From the NCBI GenBank assembly GCA_003116975.1, contig BGKB01000210.1, positions 1 through 64,000 of the forward strand: a DNA stretch of 64,000 nucleotides. The letters run 5' to 3'. The notes below the pieces were generated by a model. The model was not told the origin of the DNA, made no database searches, and worked only from the letters and a program-made list of their open reading frames with translations. The DNA comes from Aurantiochytrium sp. KH105. Its lineage: Eukaryota; Sar; Bigyra; Thraustochytrida; Thraustochytriidae. This document shows positions 59,233-64,000 of the stretch, in pieces. How positions within the stretch are numbered: position 1 is the stretch's first letter; every line of letters begins with the position of its first letter. The position numbers were made by a program, and so were the translations under genes.

Positions 59233-61470
59233 TTAATCGGTCGGTGCAAACGTGCCGTCCTCCTTGACGACACGTACATCGTCGAGAACCTCTGCAAAGT
59301 CATGATGCACCGGCCGCTCCTCGGTGGCGCCAGCAACCGCCGCCTTGGCGCGCTCGAGAGCCGCAGCGCAAAGATCTTCAGCCTTGCCCTCATTCGAAGC
59401 ACCCTTGAAGGCAAAGACGATGCAGTTCGCATCACCAATTGCCTGCAAAGGAATACAGAGCACCTGAACAAATTGCTTGCGCAGGTCGCTCAAAATGCTC
59501 TTTTGCTTTTCAGCGGACTTGCAAGCCAGATTAAGTATCAACATACCCTCCTCCGTGAGCACGCGCTTGACGTTCTCAATGGCAGATTCCTCCAAAAATG
59601 CGCGCGGCGGAAAGAGAACAGGCTGCGTGAGGTCTTTGGCGTCGACATCGAGAAACACAGCCTCGTAGGCCCCCGGCGCCGACGTGGCAGCGTCCGCCAA
59701 CCATGCAGAGCCATCGCCCACGTGGACGTCGAGCGCGCCTTCTTTGGGCGCAAAGTCAAACCATGTCTTGGCCGTCTCCACGACCTCGATATCAAGCTCT
59801 ACGGCCTGAACCTTGACCTCCGGAGCGAACCACCCACACTGCGTTGCAACGTATGACGCAAGAGCGCCTCCACCGAGACCCACGACCACGGCACGCGCAG
59901 GCGAGTCCTTCGGCTTGAGAAAACACAGACCCGAGACCATGGCTCGATGGAATTCGAACGCAAGATACGACTTGTCGATAAAGTACGACACGCTCGAAGC
60001 GTTCTTCTTGCCCTTGGCATTCTTCTTCTTGCCCTTGGCGCTCTTTTGCGCACGCCGCTTTGCAATACGCGCCTCCGATTGGATCACATCCGAAGCTTGC
60101 AAGAATACCAAGCGACGATGCGTCACAGTCTTGCCTGTGCTCTCGTCGGTGACCTCAACATCCTCAACCATAAAATCCCCGCTTGCCTCGGAAGATGTCT
60201 TGGCCACAGGCTTGCGCGTGCCAAGATCAGGACCCAGAGTCATGTACGGGACCTTGGTCGTAGCGTCGAGGTCAGACGGGTAAAGCTGCGTCATGGAAGG
60301 CGAGAGCTCCGTCTGCACCGCTTCAATCGAGGCAAACGAGTGGCTGCGACCGAGGCTGACCACGATGAGACGACCGATCCCGTTGCTTTTGGCCACCTGC
60401 ATTTGACCCTCCGCGCTGGCGAACGTCCATTCGTGCTCACGACCCTGCGGAACCAAGAAGACAGCGCATGCAATCGCAGCGTCCTTGAGAGAGCGTCCAG
60501 AATCCACTACGCTGACCAGGAAGCGAGGCAGATTCGTCGAGGACGAGGCGTCCCAGAGCGCAAAGCGCGCCCGAAGACCTTGGCCCATGTTTTGGATATT
60601 GCGCTGCATGTGGTACACGAGTCTCCGGTCGTCCACTGCGCTCTCTACATCCTCGCGCGATGACGCGAGCTCACCCTTGGTCTGCGAGCCATCGGAAAAT
60701 ACGTACATCCCAGGCTCGTCGGCCGCCTTGCGCGCGCAGATAAGAAAAGGGGCAATAAGAGAGCCAGCTTCTGGGTCAAAGGCGCGAATCTCGAGCGCAA
60801 ATCCGCGCGAGGGTTCGAACTTCTCCATGAGAAGCTCCAGAATGTGCTCCTGGGCAAGAGTCACACACAAATACGTGCCCCCCGGTCGCAGGACGCGCTC
60901 AATTTCGGCAAGCATTTTGGCGCCTTGGTCGGCGGCTGAGGCATCGGTCATGAGCGCGTCGAGAGCACCCTTGTCAAAGACCATGTCGAACTGGTCATTC
61001 CATGCGTCGTCCATCGCGAGGAAATCCATGACCTTGTACTCGAGTCCGGGCTTGTCAGTGGCCCGTGCGCGCATCTCGTCAATGACAACCTCACTAAAAT
61101 CAATGCTCGTCACCTTGCGGAACCCCGAGGCGTACATGTCTTCGCTCAGGGTCGAGTTACCGCAGCCGACGACAAGAACGTCGGTGGCGTCGCGGGACGC
61201 GGCCTTGGAGGGCATGCGTTCGACCTGGTCGGCAAAATCCGACCAGGCGCCGTACCACTCAAAGGCGCCATCTCTGCCGTCCTTTTCGCGCAGCTTGTTG
61301 AAGAACTGGTCCCAGTACGTCCGCGTCGCGAACTGCTGGTGCGTCTGCGGCAGCAGCTTGAGCGCCTCCTCCGGGTTCGGGTCCATGAGCGGCACCGCGC
61401 GCCCATCCTCCGCGCCCCGCGGGGGTCTCGGCGGCATCACGCCCCGCTGCGCGTCCTGCCGCCCTGCCAT
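59233..61470 (-). CDS. METTL13: METTL13/eEF1A-KNMT dual methyltransferase
   Basis: Protein of 745 residues from the ATG at 61470 (purine at -3, G at +4); further upstream the frame is Arg/Ala-rich and has no ATG. METTL13 methylates the N-terminus and a lysine of elongation factor eEF1A. Two SAM-binding domains: the first begins with LPQTHQQFATRTYWDQFF, GAFEWYGAW, motif I VLVVGCGNSTLSEDMY (GCG at 102-104), DKGALDALMTD and VLRPGGTYLCVTLAQEHIL; the second, spermidine-synthase-like, has DKSYLAFEFHRAMVSGL, VVVGLGGGALASYV (~530), VQAVELDIEVVETAKTWFDF and VFLDVDAKDL. The linker RRLVFLQASDVIQSEARI is also family-specific. Both motifs are intact. Its promoter is divergent to the pseudo-kinesin. Confidence 0.93.
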   Translation of the reverse strand: MAGRQDAQRGVMPPRPPRGAEDGRAVPLMDPNPEEALKLLPQTHQQFATRTYWDQFFNKLREKDGRDGAFEWYGAWSDFADQVERMPSKAASRDATDVLVVGCGNSTLSEDMYASGFRKVTSIDFSEVVIDEMRARATDKPGLEYKVMDFLAMDDAWNDQFDMVFDKGALDALMTDASAADQGAKMLAEIERVLRPGGTYLCVTLAQEHILELLMEKFEPSRGFALEIRAFDPEAGSLIAPFLICARKAADEPGMYVFSDGSQTKGELASSREDVESAVDDRRLVYHMQRNIQNMGQGLRARFALWDASSSTNLPRFLVSVVDSGRSLKDAAIACAVFLVPQGREHEWTFASAEGQMQVAKSNGIGRLIVVSLGRSHSFASIEAVQTELSPSMTQLYPSDLDATTKVPYMTLGPDLGTRKPVAKTSSEASGDFMVEDVEVTDESTGKTVTHRRLVFLQASDVIQSEARIAKRRAQKSAKGKKKNAKGKKNASSVSYFIDKSYLAFEFHRAMVSGLCFLKPKDSPARAVVVGLGGGALASYVATQCGWFAPEVKVQAVELDIEVVETAKTWFDFAPKEGALDVHVGDGSAWLADAATSAPGAYEAVFLDVDAKDLTQPVLFPPRAFLEESAIENVKRVLTEEGMLILNLACKSAEKQKSILSDLRKQFVQVLCIPLQAIGDANCIVFAFKGASNEGKAEDLCAAALERAKAAVAGATEERPVHHDFAEVLDDVRVVKEDGTFAPTD

Positions 61471-61834
61471 CGCGCTCCCTCGCCCTCGCCGCGCCGCCCG
61501 CTCCGCTCGCTCCGCTCGCCCGCTCCACGCCGCGCAGCTCGCTCGCTCTCGCTCCCAATCTGCTCTGCTCTGCTCCGCTCTGCTCTGCTGCGCTCCGCTG
61601 CTCTGCTGCTCGCTTGCTTTCCTGGCCAGCCGTGGCGCCGCACCGCCGCGGAACCGGCGCGGAACCCGGTTCTGCGCAACCCCAATCCACCCCTTCGCAA
61701 GGACCCAGCAGCAGCCAGAGGGCCAGAGAGCGCAACCCAATTGTGCGCAACCCAATTGTGCGCAACCCCAATTTTCAACGGGCTTCTTTCTGGCTGCTGT
61801 TTTCGAAGGATGATGCTTCGGCGGCAAAAACAGA

Positions 61835-62120: not shown

Positions 62121-64000
62121 ATGGCCTCAGCCGCGGGAGGCGCTGCGGCATGGTCGGTGGGGTGCCGGCTCGTGCGGCCTCCTCGCGAGGCGCCCGCGAG
62201 ACGTTTGGGGAAAGAAGGCCTCTCGAACCTGGACAACCCCAGCTGGTCCCGGCCGGGCAGCAGCAGCAGCAGCAGCAGTAGCAGCAGCAACAAGATCGGC
62301 GAAAGCGATCGCTTTCTTGCGGCCAAACCCGAGGGATTGGGCATTCCCACAAGCTCGCCCTCGTCCCTCACATCCTCTGCGCGATGGAAATGTGCGTCGC
62401 TCGAGGCCGAGCGCACGGTGATCATTCAGCAACGCCTCGGCACCGAAGATTCTCTGCAAAAAGTGAGCGGCTTTGACCGCGTCTTTCGCGAACAAGTCAC
62501 TGATGAGGTCGTTTTCCAGCGTACTGAAGAACCTCTCCTCAATGACGTTTGGAATGGTGCCGACACTTGCGCAGTGGTTTGCGGCGCGGTCAGGGAAAAA
62601 AAGGATGCCGCTGCCGCATCGCTGCAGCGACCGCTCGAATACTTATTCACGCGCATCGATGATGCTACAGATACAGCCGCAAGTGTTTTACGCTTCAAAG
62701 TTTTCCTCTCCGTGCTCTATGTATATCCCGATCAAGTTGTCGATGCCTTAGCTCCCGCGCCTCGTCGCCTTCAGCTCGGTTCAGACGGTGCAGTCAACCC
62801 ACTGCCAAATGCCGTGCAAATCGACTCCGCCGCAGAAGGTGTCGATCGCATCGCAGACTTACAGCCACCCATGCGGTCTCGCACCGCTGCACCTGCTCCC
62901 ATGCATAGAGTCGTCTGCCTTCGTCTCGAGCGGTGGGTCCGCTCACGAAAAAGGGGTCTGCTCACCCCGGATCGCGATCGCATTGCTTTACGCGACATGG
63001 GACCACCGCCATCCGAGCTTCTTCCCGAGTCCACCGACGATTGGACCGTGACCAGCTCCGTCTTTCGCAAAGTCAATGTACAGCTCCTCGAGGCCAACCT
63101 CTCAAGCACAAGCAACCCCGTCGCCGATGCACTTGGTGCGCATGCGAGTGCGCACAGTCACAAGCTTCATCGCGATGTAGCGCAGACACTTACCTCTTTC
63201 TGCCGCTGTTTGCAGGAAGACGGAGGGCCCTTTCGAGATGCCAAGCTTACCCATGTGCTCAAGCCCGTTTTTCTCGAAGCTTCGCGCTGTTCGCTCATTG
63301 CCTACGTGGAAACGCCTTCAAATAGCTATTGCAAGAGTGCCGGGCCGCTGCGCTTTGCAGAGCGCGCATTGCGTGCCGTACGCGCGCGGCAAGCTGCACC
63401 GCGGTTGGAAACTTCTTCAATTGACATATCTCATGCCACTGACACTAATCCCGACGGTGCGTACCTACTTGACGATGGCACAGGATTTCGTCACGAGAGT
63501 CTTCTTCTCAATACTTCTCCTCGAAGAAGAGGAGGTCGAAGACGCAACGCTAGCTTCAGCAGCATGACCAGTAGTGTGGAGACCAAGCTTGATCGCGGGT
63601 CAGACTACAGTCGACCAGGAACAGGATCATCGGCAACGCGGGCCTTCGAACGCTCACGCACTCGTGTTCTCGACATTCTGCAGGATCTACGCCAAGATTT
63701 ACAAACAGGAGACGAAGACGCGCATGATGGAATCACCAAATCACTTGGCCAGCAGCATCAGCGACAGCAAAGCCTACCATCCTCCCCGCGACGTTGCTTT
63801 GCCGAAGCAGGTACCGGTGTTGGCAGTCTAGATGATGAGGACCTTGCAGCATCGAGAGAGGCCCTGCGCCAGCAGCTCTCTCGCTTCCAAGTCGAAAAGG
63901 AACTTCTTGCAAAGATACGCGATGGACCACGCGCTCTTGTGCCGGACGAGGCCAAAGAAGCTGTCGGCGACCTTGTGCAGCGCTTGGAAGATGAACGTCG
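62121..64000 (+). CDS. Kinesin-like protein with degenerate motor domain (partial, runs off the window)
   Basis: Open frame of at least 626 codons from the ATG at 62121 (in-frame stop TGA at 62061) to the window edge. Ser run near residue 48, then a recognisable kinesin motor fold: FDRVFREQVTDEVVF (118-132), the P-loop position VVCGAVREKKD (152-162), a switch-II position KVNVQLLEANLSS (317-329), PFRDAKLTHVL (370-380) and LRFAERALRAVR (410-421). The family features FDRVF, FRDSKLT and LRFA are kept but the catalytic ones are lost: P-loop GxxxxGK[ST] is GAVREKKD, and DLAGSE is LLEANL. A Ser/Arg-rich linker and predicted coiled coil follow (LREALRQQ.. to LVQRLEDERR). Inference: a non-ATPase microtubule-binding or regulatory protein. 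Confidence 0.8.
   Translation, partial: MASAAGGAAAWSVGCRLVRPPREAPARRLGKEGLSNLDNPSWSRPGSSSSSSSSSSNKIGESDRFLAAKPEGLGIPTSSPSSLTSSARWKCASLEAERTVIIQQRLGTEDSLQKVSGFDRVFREQVTDEVVFQRTEEPLLNDVWNGADTCAVVCGAVREKKDAAAASLQRPLEYLFTRIDDATDTAASVLRFKVFLSVLYVYPDQVVDALAPAPRRLQLGSDGAVNPLPNAVQIDSAAEGVDRIADLQPPMRSRTAAPAPMHRVVCLRLERWVRSRKRGLLTPDRDRIALRDMGPPPSELLPESTDDWTVTSSVFRKVNVQLLEANLSSTSNPVADALGAHASAHSHKLHRDVAQTLTSFCRCLQEDGGPFRDAKLTHVLKPVFLEASRCSLIAYVETPSNSYCKSAGPLRFAERALRAVRARQAAPRLETSSIDISHATDTNPDGAYLLDDGTGFRHESLLLNTSPRRRGGRRRNASFSSMTSSVETKLDRGSDYSRPGTGSSATRAFERSRTRVLDILQDLRQDLQTGDEDAHDGITKSLGQQHQRQQSLPSSPRRCFAEAGTGVGSLDDEDLAASREALRQQLSRFQVEKELLAKIRDGPRALVPDEAKEAVGDLVQRLEDER

Follow-up and report, generated by a model that had tools for sequence, protein, structure and literature searches.

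Loss of the kinesin ATPase is already known from the papers on KIN-B and Cik1/Vik1. Cik1 and Vik1, partners of the kinesin-14 Kar3, carry a domain that is homologous to the motor but misses the structural elements needed to bind and hydrolyze ATP, and this domain has been shown to bind microtubules and to provide a foothold for Kar3 (excerpted text of PMC4338441). In Trypanosoma brucei, KIN-B pairs with KIN-A in the chromosomal passenger complex; many of its alpha4-L12 residues are absent, and no microtubule binding was seen for its head. For the animal proteins VAB-8/KIF26 and Costal-2, an absence of motor activity is reported or suspected, or the sequence is very divergent (KIF26A, excerpted text of PMC10585591; Cos2 and VAB8, excerpted text of PMC2867816). 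A fungal group has been named 'pseudoKinesin-21' (excerpted text of PMC5076506). Here, we analyze a 64,000-nucleotide stretch of Aurantiochytrium sp. KH105 (GenBank assembly GCA_003116975.1, contig BGKB01000210.1, positions 1 to 64,000 of the forward strand; the window), which ends within a pseudo-kinesin gene (62121..64000, plus strand; residues 1 to 626 of 1278). A sequence-only reading of the window had proposed that the kinesin fold is kept and its nucleotide site destroyed, and the profile, the alignment, and selection between haplotypes support this. From their sequences, the protein and its relatives are real, selected, non-catalytic kinesins, so far labyrinthulomycete wherever the source can be named, and we regard a selected kinesin fold that is not an ATPase as very probable.

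Compared by description, this protein resembles Cik1/Vik1 in having a motor homology domain without the ATP elements; unlike in Cik1/Vik1, the domain is N-terminal and is still found by sequence profiles, and microtubule binding, which has been shown for theirs, is here a prediction. The likeness to VAB-8/KIF26 and Costal-2 is likewise one of description. The sequence-only reading had seen the loss of switch II as a distinction from known dead kinesins; this does not hold, since the excerpted text of PMC4338441 already describes Cik1/Vik1 as lacking the elements for ATP binding and hydrolysis.

An open frame under selection

The open reading frame 62121-63998 reaches the window end without a stop, and on the contig the full gene is a single frame of 1278 codons whose stop codon ends at position 65957. 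In the assembly (76 Mb, 367 contigs), the gene is present twice, as are most other kinesins (matches paired by eye); the second haplotype copy, on contig C114, is likewise open over 1275 codons. When the first 626 residues were searched against the genome, only these two copies matched. The ratio of nonsynonymous to synonymous change (dN/dS) between the haplotypes is 0.166 overall, 0.09 for residues 90 to 425, 0.095 for 426 to 600, 0.135 for 601 to 1100, and 0.117 beyond. Residues 1 to 89 are the exception, with 10 amino acid differences in 86 codons (dN 0.065, dS 0.031, dN/dS 2.1, 14 changes). This may reflect either a Ser-rich linker (residues 30 to 89, 62208..62387), weakly constrained judging by the haplotype differences, or a wrongly assumed start codon.

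Four further proteins belong to the family. P0002, annotated in Hondaea fermentalgiana as 'Kinesin-like protein 5', is the same gene; over 1041 columns, it shares 96.2% of residues with the window copy and 97.8% with the copy on C114, as expected if the source is Hondaea or another thraustochytrid close to it (Stramenopiles, Labyrinthulomycetes). Its deposited model begins at residue 117 of the window frame, skips ∼66 residues of the C-terminal tail (1157 to 1222), and is probably incomplete. P0004 (45% identity, 933 amino acids) and P0005 (73% over its part) are from JGI. P0003 (44% identity, 1157 amino acids) was obtained in transcriptome project MMETSP0098 from QPX, which we take to be Mucochytrium quahogii, a thraustochytrid by taxonomy. 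The excerpted text of PMC6011583 gives MMETSP0098 as a New York strain of this clam parasite. Among 5.8 billion proteins, no members beyond P0002 to P0005 were found at an E value of 0.001, including with a four-row profile (for some of the queries, the candidates scored were those sharing the most words); extension to an E value of 10 added three ordinary kinesins (0.74 to 1.3). An intact paralog or ortholog representing the true state of the gene was also sought; none was found among the proteins at 0.001 or, with residues 1 to 626 as the query, in the same genome, and no intact motor was found among the four relatives.

These data bear on whether the gene is a decaying pseudogene or the product of an assembly or frame error. 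The divergent motifs look at first sight as decay would leave them, and residues 1 to 89 are unconstrained between haplotypes. Against this stand the 1278 and 1275 open codons, the dN/dS of 0.166, the near-identical Hondaea protein (∼98%), and the relatives at 44 to 45% identity (1157 and 933 amino acids), the first of which is from a transcriptome; we find such an origin scarcely credible. The two haplotypes, dN/dS, and the relatives rule out an assembly or frame error. The sequence-only reading had likewise taken the long open frame as an argument against decay.

Kinesin fold without an ATP site

The window translation matches the kinesin profile PF00225 with 51.3 bits (curated cutoff, 29.3; E value, 1.1e-13), and the kinesin motor fold is likewise supported; the absence of a kinesin hit, named earlier as a refuting outcome, did not occur. 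Scores were 49.5 bits for the full-length protein, 41.1 for its haplotype twin, 39.1 for P0002, 60.4 for P0003, and 47.1 for P0004; P0005, in which most of the head is missing, had no PF00225 match. Three structural blocks named in the sequence-only reading were located at residues 118, 371, and 410, all on the plus strand, as are all features of the gene given below: FDRVF (118 to 122, 62472..62486), the L12-alpha5 block FRDAKLTHVL (371 to 380, 63231..63260; YRDSKLT in kinesins), and the alpha6 block LRFAERA (410 to 416, 63348..63368). WSVGCRLVRP (residues 11 to 20, 62151..62180) is a possible beta-1 strand, matched by eye to WQVVGRVTGP of P0003; it resembles an RxRP element with one extra residue in a part of the MAFFT alignment that is not confident, so that the RxRP part of the motif-column counts (2, 2, and 1) rests on unsure alignment. 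Two structure models were of low confidence (mean predicted local distance difference test [pLDDT] scores, 54.8 and 58.1). Fold searches returned kinesins from a wide range of families at equal Z scores and so do not point to a subfamily; that the 50 fold matches listed include no Cik1/Vik1 structure excludes nothing.

The nucleotide motifs were examined in a MAFFT alignment of the family with 62 other kinesin rows from the same genome (L036 and L078 are near identical), in which 63 columns are conserved across 60 of the other rows (L080 and L081, both highly divergent, were excluded). Residues 155 to 162, GAVREKKD (62583..62606), align with GATGAGKT/GQTGxGKT, confirming the predicted replacement of the P-loop: the GQTGxGKT columns read GAVREKK-. 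P0003 has CGFV and then ENYAA in this place and P0004 has VGQGRNN, so both length and sequence vary across the family. A nucleotide might still be bound through a remodeled pocket, given the kept fold and a Lys at the Walker A lysine position in the window protein; this position is a gap in P0003 and an Arg in P0004, and we consider a binding pocket of this kind very improbable. Switch I (residues ∼255 to 262, 62883..62906) aligns to a segment that ends in MH, in which the His of NxxSSRSH alone is kept, and the predicted absence of the serine pair is borne out. Switch II corresponds to NVQLLEANL (residues 319 to 327, 63075..63101). The sequence-only reading had equated DLAGSE with LLEANL, which is indeed present at residue 322; the alignment instead pairs DLAGSE with NVQLLE (319 to 324), which begins three residues earlier, and Asp-x-x-Gly occurs in neither. 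Of DLAGSE, the window protein and P0004 keep the final Glu alone and P0003 keeps nothing. All three signatures of a catalytic motor, GxxxxGK(T/S), NxxSSRSH, and DLAGxE, are thus lost.

The genome holds at least 126 PF00225 matches (122 of 137 candidates scored), or ∼60 distinct genes when haplotypes are paired by eye. The pseudo-kinesin itself is missing from this listing, which can therefore miss such divergent heads. G-x-T-x-GK(T/S) is present at 76 of 80 other kinesin loci, counting both haplotype copies of some genes and with frames picked by a motif score that itself includes the P-loop. Among the exceptions, L075 has GQSGSGKT and L081 has GLSGSGKT, L083 is a second copy of L081 by position and score, and the L068 frame begins downstream of the P-loop. 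L080 and L081 are further highly divergent kinesins, with tree end branches of >4 and a retained P-loop (GQTGTGKT and GLSGSGKT). In this family, the kinesin ATPase appears to have been lost once more, in a genome where the P-loop is retained by the other kinesins examined.

A conserved face and a long stalk

In kinesins, the L11-alpha4-L12-alpha5 region contacts tubulin. Residues 336 to 376, which correspond to this region, have the densest invariance in the family (22 of 40 positions), including an L11-alpha4 block, DALGAHASAHSHKLHRDVAQTLTSFCRCLQ (residues 336 to 365, 63126..63215). Across the alignment, 3 of 22 nucleotide-motif columns and 19 of 41 other conserved columns are identical in three family rows (Fisher P = 0.008), a contrast chosen after a test of residue retention had given no significant difference. 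The motif (F/Y)RDxxLT is kept in three of four distinct relatives (YRETKLT in P0005). Unlike in KIN-B as described, alpha4-L12-alpha5 is the best conserved part of the family, by a narrow margin.

H341, H345, H347, C361, C363, and C390 (63126-63290, in L11-alpha4 and beta8) are invariant in all six family rows, the first five within the L11-alpha4 block. Of the other kinesins in the alignment (62 rows), 60 have a gap at position 341 and 1 has H there; C occupies position 363 in 9 rows, and at 345, 347, 361, and 390 the six most frequent letters include neither H nor C. It is conceivable, and in our view highly doubtful, that a metal- or redox-gated grip on tubulin through these residues (GAHASAHxH, FCRC, and C390) replaced the ATP switch in a nucleotide-free head. 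Among the matches listed from open-license PMC papers, no account of this family was found, whether of its lineage, its conserved L11-alpha4 block, or its His/Cys set.

Beyond the head, the conserved segment SREALRQQLSRFQ (residues 578 to 590, 63852..63890) stands at the start of a charged, probably coiled-coil stalk (∼600 to 1100). Nine positions of its SRxALxxQLxRFQ motif are identical in all six family rows, and the relatives share the layout of this motif followed by a long charged stalk. Eight 56-residue blocks (residues 655 to 1102) contain 32 to 55% D/E/K/R/Q and 0 to 4 Pro plus Gly; heptad periodicity is clearly above 500 shuffles in two of them alone (residues 991 to 1102). The downstream coiled coil of the sequence-only reading, nearly all of which lies beyond the window, is made likely, not proven, by this heptad signal and the charged, Pro/Gly-poor stretch. 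At an E value of 1e-5, with 62 of 127 candidates scored, the stalk (residues 560 to 1278) has no paralog in its own genome besides the two copies.

A proposed static head with a dimerizing stalk

With the P-loop and switches gone, a mechanochemical cycle is not expected. The head would neither bind nor hydrolyze ATP; it would dock through the L11-alpha4-L12-alpha5 face onto tubulin, or onto a ligand that replaced tubulin, without a nucleotide cycle. Through its long stalk, the protein would pair with a second copy of itself or with an active kinesin, and it would thereby provide a fixed foothold, an anchor, or a cross-linker. We find it most economical to assume an immobile head that docks by its conserved face and sits on a dimeric stalk, in the manner of Cik1/Vik1 as a foothold for Kar3 (excerpted text of PMC4338441). 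We give this reading as a whole, a non-catalytic kinesin of Labyrinthulomycetes, a probability of about 0.5. The docking mechanism, taken by itself, falls slightly short of even odds; roles as a microtubule anchor or dimer partner are plausible.

Several observations weigh against docking by a kinesin-like face. Outside the motifs, canonical residues are kept at 15, 15, and 14 of 41 columns, not significantly above the motifs (P = 0.32, 0.11, and 0.40), and the N-x-S-L-x-x-L of kinesins became A-x-T-L-x-x-F in the family. The lead of the alpha4 region is narrow, since 10 invariant columns out of 20 are also seen in three further blocks of that length. In the structure models, pLDDT falls below 50 at residues 324 to 373 (first model) and 325 to 349 (second model). 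Canonical residues being poorly kept outside the motifs too, the tubulin face is therefore conserved but in a changed form.

A changed surface would also suit a scaffold that binds neither tubulin nor a motor partner, akin to KIF26A, a kinesin that reportedly has no motor activity and functions in signaling (excerpted text of PMC10585591). Much of the canonical surface is indeed altered; the best conserved block, however, coincides with the microtubule face of kinesins and not with a new surface, and we hold a signaling adaptor to be improbable. The protein might instead be an obligate partner that does not itself bind microtubules, a dead head that, like KIN-B, stabilizes or targets a heterodimer, with the conserved face binding partner or cargo. 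The ∼60 kinesins with an intact P-loop are possible partners; none was identified, the stalk has no paralog under the search given above, and KIN-B lacks many alpha4-L12 residues, whereas this family conserves alpha4 and mostly (F/Y)RDxxLT. We judge an obligate partner unlikely, with better prospects than the scaffold.

The apparent loss of the ATPase has wider consequences. The relatives are numerous enough to show what selection retains of the fold once ATP is unused, which separates the binding role of the fold from its catalytic role and offers a natural test of the microtubule grip of a dead head. Annotation such as 'Kinesin-like protein 5' can hide a non-motor, the name being silent on the lost ATP site.

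Origin and neighboring genes

A kinesin-8 origin is favored by sequence comparison but not shown. With the window sequence, the best 8 of 67 PDB matches are kinesin-8 proteins (KIF19, which we take to be a kinesin-8, Kip3, and Plasmodium kinesin-8B; 32.7 to 23.6 bits, the next at 22.4); with the family profile, the best 8 of 150 are kinesin-8 (52.4 to 49.8 bits, followed by KIF13B at 48.0). L035, whose best PDB match is KIF19, is the nearest kinesin of the same genome to the family profile, the window protein, and P0003; P0004 alone prefers others, with L035 tenth. The kinesin-8-like L035 and L026 differ from the family in keeping GATGAGKT, the assignment of L026 resting on these P-loop letters and its tree position. 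A quick 65-row tree, which carried a long-branch warning, groups the family with the long row L070 and with L026 and L035. After seven long rows were dropped (L070, L072, L073, L074, L075, L080, and L081), a careful tree of the remaining 58 places it beside L035 and L026 with support of 65/89; the smallest grouping with good support that extends past the family comprises eight rows, including L060, L076, and L077 (99/92). When the family was constrained to L060/L076/L077, the log-likelihood was 1.96 above that of the free tree (approximately unbiased [AU] test, P = 0.56); with L005/L007, it was 8.03 below (AU P = 0.29). Neither placement is rejected.

Just downstream of the window, a 1098-amino-acid open frame (L003 4611-7907, minus strand) is convergent with the pseudo-kinesin gene and has no Pfam match at 0.01. 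The divergently transcribed neighbor at 59233-61827 (minus strand) carries a Pfam methyltransferase domain (PF13847; E value, 8.4e-15) and, by eye, a second methyltransferase-like half; it presumably resembles the METTL13-type double methyltransferases.
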